Of a stretch of DNA of 5,916 bases, positions 1 to 5,916 are shown piece after piece. This stretch comes from Bacteroidia bacterium (GTDB taxonomy: Bacteria; Bacteroidota; Bacteroidia; Bacteroidales; UBA12481). Positions within the stretch are counted from its first letter, which is position 1. Every line of letters begins with the position of its first letter. The position numbers were made by a program, and so were the translations under genes. A model generated the notes under the pieces. That model had not been told where the DNA came from, ran no database searches, and was given only the letters and a program-made list of their open reading frames with translations. The DNA lies in NCBI GenBank assembly GCA_026391235.1, contig JAPLDV010000678.1, forward strand, positions 1-5,916, given 5' to 3'.

Positions 1-327
1 AAACCCGATCCCGTAGCGATGTATGAAAAATTCAAAGTCTCTTATCGGCCCGATATAACTGCGATTGATACAACATCTTACGCCGGGGCCTCCTATTATG
101 AAGCACTTTTGCTGATGGATGAAGGGAATTTTACCGAATCCACCTGGCTGTTTGAAGAGATGATCACCGTTGACACCACTTTTGGGGTAAGCCCCCGTTG
201 GTTCCTGGCCCTGATTAACTTGCGCAAAGGAGATAAGCAGTCGTGCATGGATCAGCTGGAAGCCATTAAAAACAGCGACCCCGCGTTCTATAAACAAGTA
301 GCAGAAAAACTATACCGGAAGCTATAA
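1..327 (+). CDS. C-terminal fragment of a TPR-like helical-repeat protein (5' end outside window)
   Basis: The reading frame is open from base 1, before the first ATG at 19, so this is the tail of a longer gene; 108 codons are visible. The visible protein is alpha-helical in character. It has two helix-turn-helix units of TPR type: one around YYEALLLMDEGNFTESTWLF, and a second with the pattern W-F-L-A-L-x-x-L-R-K-G-D. It ends in a lysine-rich helix finishing KLYRKL. This pattern resembles the C-terminus of Bacteroidota TPR proteins, often membrane-anchored with an N-terminal TM segment, but that part is not visible here. TPR domains bind other proteins, and no catalytic residue can be claimed. 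The stop at 325-327 overlaps the stop of the convergent lipoprotein gene by 6 bases. The coding call is firm; the TPR call is by pattern only. Confidence 0.8.
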   Translation, partial: KPDPVAMYEKFKVSYRPDITAIDTTSYAGASYYEALLLMDEGNFTESTWLFEEMITVDTTFGVSPRWFLALINLRKGDKQSCMDQLEAIKNSDPAFYKQVAEKLYRKL

Positions 328-858
328 AACTTTAGCAGTAACCACCGTAGTGAATGTTACCTGCAGGTTGAAAGTGACGTTAGTCTGGCTCGCATTACCT
401 GAAAAAGTTACAGTGACTTCCTTCTGTTCACCCAGGATCTCATTGATTTTTGTCCACTGACTGGCAGAATTGTCAAATGTTACGGCACTCCCGTTTGTCA
501 GGGGAAGATTGGCGAAATTCCATTCAGTTGATTTGGAAGGTGTAGATACCTTAAGCTTAACATCGGTTAAAGTCACATTAGCCGATAAATTGCTGATTGT
601 ACCCGTCATTCCGGTAACCTCAAAACCATTAATTCTATCCTTGTACTCTGCGAGATCTTCATTACTGAGCGGATCCAGGGTAGCGGTCGACAGAAAAGCT
701 GCGGTTGGGGACTTTAGTACGGGCGAAGAACTCGTAACTGGCAGATTTACAGTGAAATCGGTATTTATCTTAACTGTAAGAGCATCATTGATCTTTTTGC
801 AACTGCTAAGGATCAAAACCGTGAACAAGAGGCTGAGAGCAATGGTTCTTTTTTTCAT
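322..858 (-). CDS. Small beta-rich lipoprotein of unknown function
   Basis: The 178-residue product starts with a lipoprotein signal peptide: MKKR, a hydrophobic stretch of residues 6-17, and a lipobox LSSC with the acylated Cys at residue 20. Cys is followed by KK rather than an acidic run, so there is no obvious surface-export signal of the kind described in Capnocytophaga; a periplasm-facing lipoprotein is the simpler reading. The mature part is rich in Thr, Ser, Val and Asn with alternating hydrophobic residues, notably residues 80-105 and the last 30, which suggests a beta-sandwich. No enzyme motif is visible. It loosely recalls short Bacteroidota lipoproteins beginning LLSSCKK that lack an assigned function, but this is recollection only. 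It lies 57 bases downstream of the hydratase gene on the same strand, with its own possible promoter. The start is an ATG at 858-856. The 141-codon frame on the other strand is antisense noise. Confidence 0.8.
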   Translation of the reverse strand: MKKRTIALSLLFTVLILSSCKKINDALTVKINTDFTVNLPVTSSSPVLKSPTAAFLSTATLDPLSNEDLAEYKDRINGFEVTGMTGTISNLSANVTLTDVKLKVSTPSKSTEWNFANLPLTNGSAVTFDNSASQWTKINEILGEQKEVTVTFSGNASQTNVTFNLQVTFTTVVTAKVL

Positions 859-915: not shown

Positions 916-1383
916 TCAATCGGTAAAATGGTATAGGAACAATATATACCCCACGAATGCCGGCTTGGGATTGTCGAGAATTTCCATGGTAACCTTCATT
1001 CGGGTTCGTATGATACCCCGAAGGTTTGTGAGTGCATCCATAAATATCCGGATACGCACCTGGTCGTTAACCTTTACCGGCTGATTGAACTTGAAATCTT
1101 CTATACCGTAGTTTACCAGCATCTTAACCTTTTTTACATCAGCGATCTGCGCCCATAAATAGGGCAGGAGTGAAACGGTAAGATACCCGTGAGCGATAGT
1201 ACAGCCAAAAGGTGATTCCGTTTTTGCACGTTCGGGATCAATGTGGATCCATTGATGGTCGAGCGTGGCATTTGCAAATTGATCAATTTGTTGCTGGGTG
1301 ATGGTCAGATAATCTGATACACCGATTTCCTGTCCTACAAGCGTCTGAAATTCAGCCAGTCCATTTATGATCCGTGGAGTCAT
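916..1383 (-). CDS. NodN/MaoC-like hot-dog dehydratase
   Basis: From the ATG at 1383 the product is 155 residues, a usual length for NodN-type single hot-dog proteins. A 12-codon longer version would need a TTG start at 1419 and is less likely. The hydratase-2 motif is clear: Asp42 and His47 in LDHQWIHIDP match the spacing of the catalytic Asp and His of R-specific enoyl-CoA hydratases (MaoC, PhaJ). It is followed by A53 and the substrate-pocket stretch ESPFGCTIAHGYLT. The family hydrates trans-2-enoyl-CoA or related thioesters in the cytoplasm; the exact substrate is unknown. One oddity is that the residue before the catalytic Asp is Leu41, where Gly is usual in this family. No other fatty-acid gene is present in the window. 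The lipoprotein gene lies downstream on the same strand. No clear promoter was found in its upstream gap. Confidence 0.88.
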   Translation of the reverse strand: MTPRIINGLAEFQTLVGQEIGVSDYLTITQQQIDQFANATLDHQWIHIDPERAKTESPFGCTIAHGYLTVSLLPYLWAQIADVKKVKMLVNYGIEDFKFNQPVKVNDQVRIRIFMDALTNLRGIIRTRMKVTMEILDNPKPAFVGYILFLYHFTD

Positions 1384-1430
1384 AGTATTAGAAGTTAATA
1401 TTTTGCTTTCGCCTGCCAAGATAAAAAAAA

Positions 1431-1688: not shown

Positions 1689-1770
1689 AAACGCCGGAAG
1701 GAAGCAATTATGAAAAAATTAAAACTAATAACACTCGGGATAACTTCCTTCCTGGCGTTTGCTTCCGGCG
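1689..1770 (+). promoter_or_regulatory. Shine-Dalgarno-sequestering hairpins at the start of DUF4402 gene 1
   Basis: A purine-rich SD-like sequence, AAGGA (1698-1702), sits 7 bases before the ATG at 1710; such sites are uncommon in this phylum. Bases 1689-1704 can pair with 1744-1760 within the signal-peptide codons: nine pairs (1696-1704 with 1744-1752), one bulged T (1753), then seven pairs (1689-1695 with 1754-1760). A second, exclusive pairing joins 1692-1700 with 1762-1770 (nine perfect pairs). Both bury the SD. In the first, the ATG lies in the loop. Translational control is an inference. Confidence 0.5.
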
Positions 1771-2228
1771 GAGCAACTGCACAGGTCACAGCTGCCGGAC
1801 ATATCTTCGCTGAAGTTATTGATGCCATCACGGCTTTTGAATCCTCCCCGATGAATTTCGGACGGTTCTCCACGGGCGATCAGGGCGGTTCCATTGTTAT
1901 CCCGGCCAGCGGAGCGGCCGTTTCAACCTCCAGTGTGATTACCACTGACAGCGAAATCAACCCGGCCACCTTTTCTGTCTCCGGTGCAAAAGACGCCACC
2001 TTTTCCGTTACCCTGCCCGAGGGTCCCACCACGCTAACCAGCCACACAGGTGATACCATGACGGTTACCGACTGGACCGCAACATCCGGAAAGGGCGATG
2101 ATGCATATATTCTTGCAGGGGGCATTCAAACAGTTAAAGTAGGAGCCACGCTTCAGGTTGGTTCCATTAATGATAATCCGAAGGGTATCTATACTGGTTC
2201 ATACAAAGTTACCTTCGCCTACAACTAG
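1710..2228 (+). CDS. DUF4402 family secreted protein, copy 1 (putative fibre subunit)
   Basis: The 172-residue product has a Sec signal peptide: MKKLK, a hydrophobic core, and predicted cleavage ATA|Q after residue 24. The DUF4402 pattern follows: PMNFG near residue 47, a GDQGGSIVI strand, AxFSVSGAKDATFSVTLP, GxTLQVGS, and the C-terminal NPKGIYTGSYKVTFAYN. There are no cysteines. DUF4402 proteins are small all-beta exported proteins whose role is not firmly settled; their NFG core recalls the spore-coat-U pilin-like family. The C-terminus carries the pilus-subunit signature: penultimate Tyr, Gly at position 14 from the end, alternating hydrophobics. It is about half identical to copy 3 from the NFG motif onward. 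The ATG at 1710 has an AAGGA site 7 bases upstream that can be masked by a hairpin. The function as a polymerising subunit is inferred from the tail motif and the chaperone gene nearby. Confidence 0.87.
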   Translation: MKKLKLITLGITSFLAFASGGATAQVTAAGHIFAEVIDAITAFESSPMNFGRFSTGDQGGSIVIPASGAAVSTSSVITTDSEINPATFSVSGAKDATFSVTLPEGPTTLTSHTGDTMTVTDWTATSGKGDDAYILAGGIQTVKVGATLQVGSINDNPKGIYTGSYKVTFAYN

Positions 2229-2243
2229 CCTGAAATCTCAGGT
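2228..2243 (+). other. Hairpin directly after the stop of DUF4402 gene 1
   Basis: CCTGA (2229-2233) pairs with TCAGG (2238-2242) over a 4-base loop, with an extra G-T pair outside. No T-tract follows, so it is not a classical terminator. A similarly placed hairpin follows copy 3, and the flanking bases resemble each other, so it was probably copied with the gene. Confidence 0.4.
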
Positions 2244-2416
2244 AAACTTCCAAAATATAGTAGATCATTCCAGTAAATGGAATACTTTCTATTTGTTAAC
2301 AACTTGTAATAATCAGAAAATGAGGCGAATAGGATTAACACGCCAGATTGGTATGCTTATTGTCTGTTGTGGCATAGAAAAAATTATTAAAAACAAATAA
2401 ATTAAATTTCTAAGTC

Positions 2417-2929
2417 ATGAAAACTTCAATCAAACTCTTCGCTCTCGGAATGATCCTGATGGGATTCGGTGTTAGTGTGAATGCACAGTCAACGGCTACG
2501 GCCAGCACCACTGCCACACTTGTAGTACCGATTTCTATTGCAAAAACAACTGACATGAATTTTGGAACAGTTGCAGCCAGTGCTACCGCAGGTACTGTAG
2601 CATTAGATTACATAAATGGCCGCACCGCAACCGGAGGTGCCAGTTTACCTGCTGGCTCCGTTACACAGAAAACTGCTGTCTTTACAGTTACCGGAGAAGG
2701 AAGCAGCACATTTTCAATTGCTGTTCCTTCAGCCCCAATTACACTGAATGGATCCGTTTCAGGAACAATGACCGTAGACAATTTTGTAGCTGATCTTGGC
2801 GCAGCCGCTACTCTCGTATCAGGTTCCAAGGTAATCAATGTAAAGGCTATCTTAAATGTACCCGCCAATGCAGTTGCAGGAACTTACACTAATGCAAGTG
2901 GCTTATTTGTAACTGTTAACTACAACTAA
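2417..2929 (+). CDS. DUF4402 family secreted protein, copy 2 (divergent paralogue)
   Basis: The 170-residue product has a Sec signal peptide with predicted cleavage VNA|Q after residue 23. The mature start is Thr/Ala-rich (STATASTTATLVVPISI), followed by the MNFGTV motif, AVFTVTGEGSSTFSIAVP and the C-terminal GTYTNASGLFVTVNYN. These fit DUF4402, but the protein is clearly farther from copies 1 and 3 than they are from each other. There is no cysteine. It lacks the NPKGIYTGSY block. Its tail has the penultimate Tyr, but the Gly lies 16 residues from the end, as if two residues had been inserted in the last hairpin. Codon choice looks more AT-rich than in copies 1 and 3 by eye. The start ATG follows an A/T-rich leader without an SD, typical of the phylum. 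It lies 188 bases after copy 1 and is followed by a strong terminator. It may be a different structural subunit of the same fibre. Confidence 0.85.
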   Translation: MKTSIKLFALGMILMGFGVSVNAQSTATASTTATLVVPISIAKTTDMNFGTVAASATAGTVALDYINGRTATGGASLPAGSVTQKTAVFTVTGEGSSTFSIAVPSAPITLNGSVSGTMTVDNFVADLGAAATLVSGSKVINVKAILNVPANAVAGTYTNASGLFVTVNYN

Positions 2930-2943
2930 CATTTTCCTGCCGG

Positions 2944-2995
2944 AATACAAAGAGTGCTGCCAGAGGCGGTGCTCTTTGTATTTTGGATTTTGTTT
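2944..2995 (+). terminator. Rho-independent-type terminator after DUF4402 gene 2
   Basis: AATACAAAGAG (2944-2954) is the exact complement of CTCTTTGTATT (2972-2982). The stem extends inward with two G-C and three G-T pairs to a 7-base loop at 2960-2966, giving about 16 pairs. A T-rich run follows (ttttggattttgtttta). It begins 15 bases after the gene 2 stop and separates genes 1-2 from gene 3 onward. The lower stem is palindromic and could also serve the opposite strand. Confidence 0.8.
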
Positions 2996-3018
2996 TACTT
3001 GTGTTAAGTTTATCTTTA
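2989..3018 (+). promoter_or_regulatory. Candidate promoter for DUF4402 gene 3, chaperone and adhesin
   Basis: TTTG (2989-2992) is followed 18 bases later by TATCTTTA (3011-3018), which matches TAnnTTTG at 7 of 8 positions; the expected gap is 19-21. It lies just after the terminator and about 36 bases before the chosen ATG at 3054, where a promoter for a new transcript is expected. A second near-match, tacgtttc at 3017-3024, overlaps it. Confidence 0.35.
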
Positions 3019-3053
3019 CGTTTCAGAGTCTTTTTTCAAAAGTATCAGCCGAA

Positions 3054-3575
3054 ATGAAAAAGCTTATCCTGATCATTGTTGCAATTTCCACCTTCCTGGT
3101 GCTGCCTGCTGTCCGGGTTATGGCACAGGATCGTGCAACTGCTCGGGTATCGGCAATGATCATTATACCGTTAACTGCCACAGAGTACACCTCACTGAAT
3201 TTCGGACGGGTATTTCCGGGCAGCCAGGGTGGCACTATCACGGTTAGCCCAACAGGCTATGTTGTAACCTCATCCACGGTTGTTGCCGATGCGAGTCCCA
3301 GAAATCCCGGCGGCTTTTATGTTACCGGCCAAACGGATGCCACTTTCTCGATTGCTCTGCCGGATGGTCCGGCTACCCTTACCAGTACTGATGATTCAAA
3401 AACCATGGTGGTGAGCGATTGGGTCACCGTCCCTGAAAACGGCGATGCCGGTATCAAACTCACCGGAGGCAACCAAATGGTTATGGTTGGGGCCACTCTC
3501 AATGTGGGTTCACTGGATGAGAACCCCAAGGGAATCTACACGGGTTCATACCAAATCACCTTCGCATACAATTAA
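3054..3575 (+). CDS. DUF4402 family secreted protein, copy 3 (putative fibre subunit)
   Basis: The ATG at 3054 is chosen because it opens directly into a signal peptide (MKKLILIIVAISTFLVL, cleavage VMA|Q after residue 24). The in-frame ATG at 2976 would add 26 residues, begin inside the terminator stem and hide that signal. The mature protein has the DUF4402 pattern: LNFGRVFPGSQGG, DATFSIALPDGPATLT, VGATLNVGS and NPKGIYTGSYQITFAYN at the end. Its total of 173 residues is almost the same as copy 1. No cysteine is present. The tail again shows penultimate Tyr and Gly 14 from the end. It differs from copy 1 in the N-terminal strand, where ATARVSAMIIIPL is closer to the usual DUF4402 start. The chaperone gene begins 78 bases downstream, so it may be that chaperone's closest client. 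Confidence 0.87.
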   Translation: MKKLILIIVAISTFLVLPAVRVMAQDRATARVSAMIIIPLTATEYTSLNFGRVFPGSQGGTITVSPTGYVVTSSTVVADASPRNPGGFYVTGQTDATFSIALPDGPATLTSTDDSKTMVVSDWVTVPENGDAGIKLTGGNQMVMVGATLNVGSLDENPKGIYTGSYQITFAYN

Positions 3576-3653: not shown

Positions 3654-4547
3654 ATGTTCTGCGCAATGAATACATCAGGAACAATTCTCGCCCGGTTTGC
3701 CCGTCAGGATTTTTTACGGGTATTGATTTTACTCTGTGGATTGATCATTTTACCCGGCATTTCTTATACCGGTTTGATGGCACAGGGAAACCTGCTGATC
3801 ACTCCGCGAAGGGTTGTCTTCGAAGGCACCAAAAGAAACGAGGAACTGAACCTGGCCAATACCGGTATTGATTCCGCAACGTATAATGTTTCGCTGGTGC
3901 AATACCGGATGAAGGAAGACGGTGCGTTTGAAGAGATCAAAGTACCCGATTCAGGCCAGTTTTTTGCCGATAAGTATATCCGGTTTTTCCCGCGCACGGT
4001 TACGTTGGCCCCAAATGAAGCCCAAGTTGTTAAAATGCAGTTATTCAGGACAAATAATATCCCCGCCGGCGAATACCGCTCACATGTTTATTTCAGGGCA
4101 GTTCCCAAACAAACGGCTCTGGGTGAAGAAGAAAAGCCCAAAGATTCAACAACTTTATCAGTAAAACTGGTTCCAATTTTTGGAATAACCATTCCCGTAA
4201 TCATACGGGTGGGTGAAAACACGATGAAGGTCACTCTTTCGGACCTCTCCTTTGAAATGATCAATGATACCGTGCCCAGGCTGAACCTGGCATTTAACCG
4301 TACCGGGAATATATCGGTATACGGCGATCTTGCAGTAAATCATGTATCACCCGATGGAATAGCAACTCAGGTGGGAACCATCAGAGGGATTGCTGTTTAT
4401 ACTCCGAATGTCATACGGAGGATTAAAATGGATCTGAACAGGATTCCGGTTGTTAATTTCAGCGCTGGAAAACTACAGGTAATCTACTCCGGTCAAACTG
4501 ATGCCAAACCGGTGAAATACGCCGAAGCAGAATTGCTTTTACGCTGA
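3654..4547 (+). CDS. PapD-like periplasmic pilus-assembly chaperone
   Basis: The 297-residue product (293 if the ATG at 3666 is used) has a long signal peptide, hydrophobic around residues 21-36, with predicted cleavage LMA|Q after residue 43. Domain 1 (about 46-150) follows the pilus-chaperone pattern: TPRRVVFEG (51-58), where Arg53 lines up with the subunit-anchoring Arg8 of PapD (R-x-V-F-D-G there); ELNLAN; then F-x-P-R-T-V-T-L-A-P-N-E-A-Q (112-124). The interdomain stretch FGITIPVIIRVG (176-187) replaces the LFYRP region of PapD, and I see no clear equivalent of Lys112. Domain 2 (about 188-297) is a second Ig-like beta domain. Such chaperones hold fibre subunits in the periplasm by donating a strand. 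It sits 78 bases after DUF4402 gene 3 and 36 bases before the adhesin gene, suggesting a shared transcript. The family call is good; DUF4402 proteins as clients are inferred. Confidence 0.85.
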   Translation: MFCAMNTSGTILARFARQDFLRVLILLCGLIILPGISYTGLMAQGNLLITPRRVVFEGTKRNEELNLANTGIDSATYNVSLVQYRMKEDGAFEEIKVPDSGQFFADKYIRFFPRTVTLAPNEAQVVKMQLFRTNNIPAGEYRSHVYFRAVPKQTALGEEEKPKDSTTLSVKLVPIFGITIPVIIRVGENTMKVTLSDLSFEMINDTVPRLNLAFNRTGNISVYGDLAVNHVSPDGIATQVGTIRGIAVYTPNVIRRIKMDLNRIPVVNFSAGKLQVIYSGQTDAKPVKYAEAELLLR

Positions 4548-4583: not shown

Positions 4584-5916
4584 ATGAAAAACAAGCAAAA
4601 TGGAAAAGCGTGGTCACCCTGCAAGTACCTTGTAATTGCTTGTTTTTTTCTTACGGTTGGCATCGCTGGCCAGGCACAAAGAACAGCCTCGGTATCCGGC
4701 AATTGGAGTAACACTGCAACATGGGGAGGGGCTGCAGTGCCCACCGCGGCACAAACAGTTACTATTAACAATGGTATAACTGTAACAGTTGATATAGCAG
4801 CGGCCTGTAATACGCTTACAACCGTAAATACTGGTACCTTAACAATTAGCGGAACTAACTCTTTAGCTGTAACTGGTCTGATTACCATGGCCCGGCCTGC
4901 GTCCAATAACACTAACTTTACCATTGCTGTAGGTGCCGGATCGCTTACTGCCGGATCACTTACAATGAGTGCGACTACAACAACCAGGAATGATATTATT
5001 TCCATTTCAACCGGCACGCTTACCATCAGTGGAGCCATTACTACAGGAACAACCGGTTGTCAGTTTATTTTTACCGGTGCGGGGAAAATGAATATCGGCG
5101 GCTCCTTTTCCAACACACCTACATTAACGACATTTTCGGGTTCAACAGTGAACTACACGGCTCTGGGTGTGCAAACGGCACTGGCTACAGCCTATAGCAA
5201 CCTTACACTTTCCGGCTCAGGTGTAAAAACATTCGCTACCACACCAACTGTCAATGGCGTACTTTCCATGGAAGGAACTGCTACAGTTACTGTTACAACA
5301 GGCGTTGTGACCTACGGCACAAATGCAACCCTTCAATACAATACGGCAACCTCCAGAACGGTCACCTCCGAAGAATGGATCAGCCCCTTTGCGGCAACCG
5401 GAGGTGTTATTATTGCCAATACAGGAACGATTACCGCAGATGGTGCCAAAGTCTTCAATGCATCGGTCCCGCTAATTATTAATTCCAATGCGACGCTGGC
5501 TACCAATAACTTTCAGGTGACCTTTGGCGGCAATTTTGTAAATGATGGCATGTTTACTGCCGGTAGCTCTCCAATCGTTATCGCCAATACCATGGCAGCG
5601 CAGAGCATTGACGGTTTTACCACAACAGGAACCGTTTCGATGACCAAAACCGGGGGTACTGCAACTTTTGCAGGCAATGTGAACGGTGGAGCATTTTCGC
5701 TAACTGGCTCCGGAGGAATCCTGAATCTCGGAACCGGATTGACCCATTCAGGTACCACGCTAACGCTCGCAGGAGCCGGACAACCTTCCGGGAGTTGGGG
5801 AGGCCCTACATCAGGGGCAACCTATATCAATTCTACCTACTTTGCCACAGCAACCGGTGTTCTGAATGTTTCCACCTCATCCTGTACCACCGGTTCCTGG
5901 CTTGGCACTAACAGCA
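4584..5916 (+). CDS. Large secreted beta-repeat adhesin-like protein (3' end outside window)
   Basis: The frame starts at the ATG at 4584 and stays open to the window edge, giving 444 visible codons. The signal peptide is MKNKQNGKAW, a hydrophobic core at 15-28 and predicted cleavage GQA|Q after residue 31. The mature protein opens with SGNWSNTATWGGAAVPTA, a motif common at the start of Bacteroidota secreted repeat proteins. It is very rich in Thr, Gly, Ser, Asn and Val, with short strand-turn units such as GTLTISG at 84-90 and 144-150, as expected for a parallel-beta or stacked-sandwich fold. Residues 396-430 (AGAGQPSGSWGG ... YF ... GVLNVS) look like the end of one module, and CTTGSWLGTNS at 434-444 like the start of another. 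Cysteines are sparse. A C-terminal secretion signal (for example T9SS) would lie outside the window. It begins 36 bases after the chaperone stop. A surface adhesin or fibre-associated role is inferred. Confidence 0.85.
   Translation, partial: MKNKQNGKAWSPCKYLVIACFFLTVGIAGQAQRTASVSGNWSNTATWGGAAVPTAAQTVTINNGITVTVDIAAACNTLTTVNTGTLTISGTNSLAVTGLITMARPASNNTNFTIAVGAGSLTAGSLTMSATTTTRNDIISISTGTLTISGAITTGTTGCQFIFTGAGKMNIGGSFSNTPTLTTFSGSTVNYTALGVQTALATAYSNLTLSGSGVKTFATTPTVNGVLSMEGTATVTVTTGVVTYGTNATLQYNTATSRTVTSEEWISPFAATGGVIIANTGTITADGAKVFNASVPLIINSNATLATNNFQVTFGGNFVNDGMFTAGSSPIVIANTMAAQSIDGFTTTGTVSMTKTGGTATFAGNVNGGAFSLTGSGGILNLGTGLTHSGTTLTLAGAGQPSGSWGGPTSGATYINSTYFATATGVLNVSTSSCTTGSWLGTNS

Follow-up and report, generated by a model that had tools for sequence, protein, structure and literature searches.

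What do DUF4402 proteins do? The question is raised by a contig of 5,916 nucleotides from a Bacteroidia bacterium (JAPLDV010000678.1; "the window" below means this whole stretch), which encodes three such proteins in a row, followed by a relative of the pilus chaperone PapD. A preliminary description of this DNA proposed, from the C-termini alone, that DUF4402 proteins are clients of the chaperone and polymerize by donor-strand exchange. That proposal is supported here by a pilin-like fold, an N-terminus resembling a donor strand, a chaperone fold, an usher homolog in related loci, and the linkage of these genes across genomes. Very probably, the window covers the subunit and chaperone genes of an operon for a chaperone-usher pilus with DUF4402 subunits, in a Bacteroidales-like bacterium. 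Fold similarity, motifs, gene linkage, and usher homology were all computed. The genes concerned are these.

1710..2228 (+): DUF4402 copy 1, predicted pilin subunit with a signal peptide, donor-strand N-terminus, and C-terminal strand with Gly at -14 and Tyr at -2; PF14352 E 1e-23, 84.8 bits
2417..2929 (+): DUF4402 copy 2, predicted pilin subunit, Gly-16 class; PF14352 E 9.7e-20, 72.0 bits
3054..3575 (+): DUF4402 copy 3, predicted pilin subunit; PF14352 E 2.1e-22, 80.6 bits; AF2 model with pLDDT 84.7 and pilin matches
3654..4547 (+): PapD-like two-domain periplasmic chaperone; many homologs start at the position of ATG 3666

All three copies exceed the PF14352 cut-off (25.2 bits), the only family above cut-off when they were scanned with Pfam; that scan gave no fimbrillin-family match. 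For copy 3, ATG 3054 is a likelier start than TTG 2976, the one given in a mechanical list of open reading frames (ORFs). Close homologs of the window genes lie in metagenome genomes of Bacteroidales and Prolixibacteraceae.

A pilin-like signature at the C-terminus

The preliminary description also saw, in the ends of these proteins, the signature by which chaperones recognize subunits of P and type 1 pili. The translated C-termini bear out what it read. All three copies end in Tyr-Asn. Copy 1 (GIYTGSYKVTFAYN) and copy 3 (GIYTGSYQITFAYN) carry Gly at -14 and Tyr at -2, with hydrophobic residues at -2, -4, -6, and -8; copy 2 (VAGTYTNASGLFVTVNYN) has Tyr at -2 and its Gly at -16. The strands concerned were placed from their residues.

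2184..2225 (+): C-terminal strand of copy 1, GIYTGSYKVTFAYN
2879..2926 (+): C-terminal strand of copy 2, GTYTNASGLFVTVNYN
3531..3572 (+): C-terminal strand of copy 3, GIYTGSYQITFAYN; modeled as strand 137-151 in the fusion described below

How general is this pattern? DUF4402-family ORFs were collected from the fetched loci with an iterated profile; exclusion of incomplete ORFs, those outside 120-260 residues, and duplicate C-termini left 297. Position -2 is Tyr in 227 of these and aromatic in 250 (84%); Gly stands at -14 in 174 (59%), and at -14 or -16 in 253 (85%). The background, 526 other ORFs of the first 81 loci, gives 3.8% for Tyr at -2, 8.2% for an aromatic residue there, and 5.5% for Gly at -14. 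The full motif (Gly at -14, an aromatic at -2, and four hydrophobics) is found in 41% of the family versus 0.2% of the background, where the 297 are, of course, related rather than independent sequences, and the background is not confined to secreted beta-sandwich proteins. Twelve pilins of E. coli K-12, measured alike, have Gly at -14 in 12/12, Tyr at -2 in 11/12, and all four hydrophobics in 3/12. Gly-14/Tyr-2 is common in the DUF4402 family, not universal. Seven of the 297 ORFs came from short loci in which neither a chaperone nor an usher was read. All seven have Gly at -14 and Tyr at -2; they belong to five genomes, all with an usher match and four with a chaperone match.

The structural model of the DUF4402 subunit points the same way. 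Among the matches listed by Foldseek, 47 of 50 are chaperone-usher pilins, with CfaB among the best, and in both Foldseek and VIA the pilin matches reach the C-terminal strand. The VIA-align lists cannot exclude families, and no family was excluded on that ground.

A predicted donor strand at the N-terminus, and a candidate tip

Alternation was scored in the 91 subunits in which exactly 25 residues separate the Gln predicted to begin the mature protein from the conserved FG-motif Phe. Small or hydrophobic residues occupy positions -24, -22, -20, -18, -16, and -14 in 69-98% of these subunits, and the intervening positions in 4-12%. This is, to judge from sequence, the pattern expected of a strand that would fill a pilin groove. 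The three window copies have the 25-residue length and, as judged by eye, the same alternation. Cleavage sites were set by a simple rule, rather than by a signal-peptide predictor.

1785..1817 (+): predicted donor strand of copy 1 (its N-terminal extension), residues 26-36, placed after the alternation seen in the family; predicted cleavage before Gln
2489..2521 (+): predicted donor strand of copy 2, residues 25-35, by the family pattern
3129..3161 (+): predicted donor strand of copy 3, residues 26-36, by the family pattern; the fused model leaves its beginning disordered (residues 1-12, pLDDT <50)

Some DUF4402 proteins lack this strand, and these are not randomly placed. The N-terminal stretch is shorter than 20 residues in 31 of the 35 proteins encoded directly 5' of the usher described below (Mann-Whitney p 5e-19), in 5 of the 191 encoded directly 5' of a chaperone or another DUF4402 gene, and in 8 of the 44 with no such neighbor seen; subunits without an assignable cleavage site are left out of these counts. 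At position -2, the pre-usher proteins have Gln in 24/38 and Tyr in 8/38. From alignment A11, 6 of 44 same-frame gene pairs were dropped, either because they were duplicates or because their gaps were long. The missing donor strand suggests that these pre-usher proteins are tip subunits, since a subunit with no strand to give must leave the cell first.

DUF4402 proteins of about 290 residues are also encoded directly 3' of an usher in three loci: L189:5938-6804 (+), L190:9818-10711 (+), and L193:5452-6318 (-). These have room for an extra N-terminal domain and are possible two-domain tip adhesins.

The chaperone

The model of the protein encoded at 3654..4547 has the two-domain fold of a pilus chaperone, closest to the archaic CsuC, with the classical YadV near. 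In Foldseek the top match is CfaA. YadV and SfaE also match the fold, and structural matches share some 9-15% sequence identity. The window therefore encodes a two-domain, PapD-like periplasmic chaperone. Its PapD_N match (E 0.016) lies under the Pfam cut-off; several homologs are already named "P pilus assembly chaperone PapD" in one source.

Pro113, and likewise Pro51, is invariant in 49/49 aligned relatives; an invariant proline of such chaperones, and its role, are described in PMC4654587.

3990..3992 (+): chaperone Pro113, in 49/49 aligned relatives; paired with EcpB Pro60 in a low-probability alignment
4077..4079 (+): chaperone Arg142, candidate anchor of the subunit carboxylate; aligns with EcpB Arg89 at low probability
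4155..4211 (+): predicted chaperone G1 donor strand, residues 168-186; strand 344-362 of the fused model

The alignment that pairs Pro113 with Pro60 and Arg142 with Arg89 has an hhalign probability of only 32%. The arginine stands at position 142 in 30 of the 49 relatives and at 144 in the other 19; a candidate pair in domain 2, Arg216 and Tyr249, is present in 44.

How, then, might the C-terminus of a subunit be held? Classical chaperones use an Arg/Lys pair to bind the carboxylate. No such pair stands out in the listed alignment columns, where Arg53 is found in 29/49 relatives and no column from 170 to 183 is dominated by Lys; these are the columns where the classical pair would be expected. 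Non-classical chaperones use an Arg on strand F of domain 1 and an Arg-Tyr pair in domain 2, for which Arg142/144 and Arg216/Tyr249 are the candidates here. The chaperone appears to be of the non-classical type, unlike those of P and type 1 pili, and the C-terminus is therefore probably read by a different anchor.

Searches of the Protein Data Bank (PDB) by sequence added little. The single chaperone sequence gave no match, the matches of a shallow profile (A2) were dismissed as chance, and HisF fragments, which came first with a deeper profile (A9; E 0.001), were likewise taken as chance.

The complex of copy 3 with the chaperone was modeled as a single-chain fusion, for which pLDDT, pTM, and secondary structure were obtained. 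The fused model has a pTM of 0.64; the last strand of the subunit (137-151) is continuous, and a G1 strand of 19 residues (344-362) is present. In a related locus, L191:5008-8016 (-), a single ORF of 1002 residues matches both the chaperone and the DUF4402 profiles and adjoins an usher; this is perhaps a natural chaperone-subunit fusion.

An usher homolog in related loci

A chaperone and its clients do not make a chaperone-usher system without an usher, and the window ends before any usher gene. Eighty related loci were fetched (81 with the window), many on contigs that end early. A gene order frequently found in them begins with one or more DUF4402 genes, followed by a chaperone gene, often a gene for a giant protein, another DUF4402 gene, and then a gene for a large protein. 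This large protein, of 859-1336 residues where complete, is encoded in 33 of the 81 loci (the window is not one of these); in 31 of the 33, its gene lies directly 3' of a DUF4402 gene.

A shallow profile of the large protein (A4) gave 62.5% over 133 columns, and the alignments were therefore deepened before any conclusion was drawn. With 40 members, the profile aligned by hhalign to seven ushers of E. coli K-12 with a probability of 97.3% (E 2e-11, 586 columns); the reversed control gave 0.3%, and unrelated pairings gave at most 2.8%. The profile matches 33 of the 34 chaperone-bearing genomes tried, which were taken from the 80 loci. By these alignments the large protein appears to be a divergent usher, encoded together with the subunits in the family as a whole. 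One feature is unusual for ushers: 26 of the 40 proteins match SPOR (for example, L014:16027-19653 and L101:64-4443), a peptidoglycan-binding domain.

The usher bears on a different account of the locus, in which a chaperone-like protein complements DUF4402 proteins by strand donation to give a static surface complex that does not polymerize, like the pair formed by WxL and the WxL-interacting protein (WxLIP) in Gram-positive bacteria. WxLIP domains at E up to 1 match 11 and 4 of the 49 chaperone relatives, cut-offs not being applied; none was listed at E up to 1 when the window chaperone itself was scanned with Pfam. The window chaperone scores 13.4 with CsuC versus 11.9 with WxLIP. A static complex has no need of the donor-strand-like N-terminus that most subunits carry, and nearly every genome tried encodes an usher homolog. 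We consider a static complex highly improbable.

Linkage across genomes

Two surveys asked how DUF4402, chaperone, and usher are distributed, each around a chosen centre that is itself a carrier. The first covered 148 genomes from the class of a Chitinophaga. DUF4402 exceeded the cut-off in three, one of which is the centre, and strong chaperone and usher matches were found in the same three; in a fourth (G082), the DUF4402 match is weak and under the cut-off. The usher profile matched 26 genomes at E 0.001 and only six below 1e-10, with the match in G061 covering the C-terminal domain alone. Two genomes (G087:C10 and G119:C41) have a diverged usher and no PF14352 match; their subunits may be an unrecognised family.

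The second survey covered 395 genomes from the phylum of a Pedobacter (Bacteroidota). DUF4402 was found in 63 at E 0.001 (59 above the cut-off), the usher in 77 at E 1e-10, and the chaperone in 37. An usher is present in 58 of the 63 DUF4402 genomes (Fisher p 1e-46) and 35 of the 37 chaperone genomes (Fisher p 3e-26), kinship being ignored in both tests. That the remaining five DUF4402 genomes might lack an usher was rejected once their loci had been read with deeper profiles: in these, and in the two remaining chaperone genomes, DUF4402, chaperone, and usher genes are adjacent in all seven. Thus, 63 of the 63 DUF4402 genomes have an usher-profile match, five of them only after this reading. 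With comparison regions included, 12 of the 12 regions read have the three genes side by side; the loci of the 58 were not all read. The comparison group that the preliminary description called for, DUF4402 without a nearby chaperone, therefore hardly exists among these genomes. No PF14352 match was found in 19 of the 77 usher genomes.

Two Polaromonas plasmids (L200:5893-11234 and L201:4806-10071) carry in a row DUF4402, a small protein, DUF4402, the chaperone, and the usher. Their ushers are recorded as carboxypeptidase-like, and match the usher profile with E values of 3e-120 and 5e-113. The system is therefore not confined to Bacteroidota; its presence on plasmids, close to transposase genes, suggests that it spreads horizontally. 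Across the related loci as a whole, DUF4402 subunits, chaperone, and usher make up a full, though divergent, system of the chaperone-usher kind, which goes beyond what the preliminary description claimed; polymerisation, strand exchange, and surface display would be expected of it.

The giant protein and the window's other genes

In many loci a gene for a giant protein lies inside the cluster, between chaperone and usher. The window holds its beginning.

4584..5916 (+): N-terminal portion of a giant secreted repeat protein that runs past the end of the window; G8 domain at 22.1 bits, just under the cut-off of 22.9; counterparts end in a sorting domain of the type IX secretion system (T9SS)

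Ten counterparts, picked from the complete ones listed after their C-termini had been seen, were compared with TIGR04183, the T9SS type A sorting domain; all ten exceed its cut-off. The Pfam version of this domain matches one of four whole giants, below its cut-off, which speaks against such an ending. Some ORFs 3' of the chaperone are pieces with other ends. The sorting domain led to the rejection of the giant as a tip adhesin capped by a pilin domain.

Might the chaperone and the usher-like protein instead serve the giant, with DUF4402 proteins as accessory surface proteins? The place of the giant gene and the T9SS ending of the ten chosen giants speak for this. Yet the three genes are adjacent with no giant between in L016, L021, L028, L034, L055, L058, L062, L064, and L069, nor is one found between chaperone and usher in the 12 regions read with deeper profiles, and in L076 and L078 a large ORF lies 3' of the usher instead. 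Thus, the giant is not essential; moreover, T9SS cargo is not known to need an usher. Service to the giant is a highly improbable role for these proteins. A hybrid organelle, in which a DUF4402 chaperone-usher fiber, its usher tied to peptidoglycan by SPOR, displays or works with a T9SS-delivered giant adhesin, is a speculative idea that we rather doubt. If it were true, two outer-membrane export machines would cooperate on one structure.

Two further genes lie 5' of the cluster and are apparently unrelated to it.

322-858 (-): lipoprotein-like protein with weak similarity to DUF4251
916-1419 (-): MaoC-like dehydratase

Weighing the pilus reading

Several results count against a chaperone-usher pilus. 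With the DUF4402 model, no Foldseek match reaches E 0.001, query-normalised TM-scores are at most 0.43, and the VIA Z is below 8, rated middling by the tool. Comparison of the DUF4402 profile with that of the K-12 pilins gives an insignificant 13.9%. The 49 chaperone relatives match fn3_5 in 32 cases and PapD_N in 28. With matches allowed up to E 1, the Pfam Usher model finds 3 of the 40 usher-like proteins, the best at 2e-4, and PDB sequences searched with the usher profiles (A4 and the deeper A8) returned SPOR and small C-terminal domains, no usher. In the fused model, residues 341-350 of the G1 region have a pLDDT of about 63, and strand insertion is not directly seen in output that holds neither coordinates nor predicted aligned error. 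Finally, the usher, the tip candidate, and the C-terminus of the giant lie outside the window, and their presence in this organism is therefore judged from relatives.

The insignificant profile comparison and the middling fold scores would also be expected were the C-terminal pattern an ordinary strand end in a closed sandwich, with pilin likeness arising by convergence. Such an origin would leave hard to explain the exact match at -14 and -2, a motif found in 0.2% of the background, the N-terminal alternation, and the linkage to chaperone and usher; it is barely credible.

Comparison with known pili

Among known systems, archaic (sigma) pili, such as Csu of Acinetobacter and CupE of Pseudomonas, are built from spore-coat-U-type pilins, which DUF4402 subunits replace here. 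Unlike archaic pili, the window copies have no cysteines, many ushers bear SPOR tails, a T9SS giant is often encoded, and the host belongs to another phylum. Alternative (alpha) pili (CFA/I, ECP) resemble the present system in that CfaA is the top chaperone match, CfaB is among the best DUF4402 matches, and EcpB aligns at Pro60/Arg89 (32%); they differ in gene content, subunit family, and host lineage. Classical P and type 1 pili share Gly-14 and Tyr-2 of the subunit, the donor-strand logic, and the fold match to YadV/SfaE.

Type V fimbriae (FimA, Mfa1) are likewise donor-strand fibers, and from the same phylum. Their subunits mature in steps that involve processing as lipoproteins and cleavage by a protease, and according to PMC5789003 chaperone or usher genes had not been described for P. 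gingivalis. The window proteins differ in that they match no fimbrillin family.

Has such a fiber been described before? Two papers place archaic pili in Proteobacteria, Cyanobacteria, and Deinococcus-Thermus (PMC4654587, PMC10104325); a third speaks of a wide range of phyla, without further specification (PMC9452303), and a fourth leaves the chaperone-usher pathway out of its survey (PMC4793230). Among the open-licence papers searched, none on DUF4402 under that name was found, nor any description of such a fiber in Bacteroidota, although it may be described elsewhere.

A proposed mechanism and its meaning

Strand donation, polymerisation, the tip role, and any link to the giant are inferred, and would fit together as follows. 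DUF4402 proteins would reach the periplasm via Sec, and fold there as Ig-like pilins without a last strand. The chaperone would lend its G1 strand to the subunit, whose C-terminus would be anchored, probably by arginine, in a non-classical manner. The usher would then put the alternating N-terminal strand of the following DUF4402 subunit in place of the chaperone strand, with the fiber growing outwards. The DUF4402 protein without a donor strand, encoded just 5' of the usher, would be its tip. Where a cluster encodes it, the giant T9SS-secreted protein may decorate the fiber or work beside it.

This would give a likely function to DUF4402, a family with at least 3601 matches in one profile search. 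The parts can now be named by position and motif: the usher, known as carboxypeptidase-like in plasmid records; the tip candidate without a donor strand; and the candidate anchor residues of the chaperone. Carriers include culturable organisms, among these Pedobacter cryoconitis and Chitinophaga (L056, L040). If the reading is true, a further phylum would be added to the pilus pathway.

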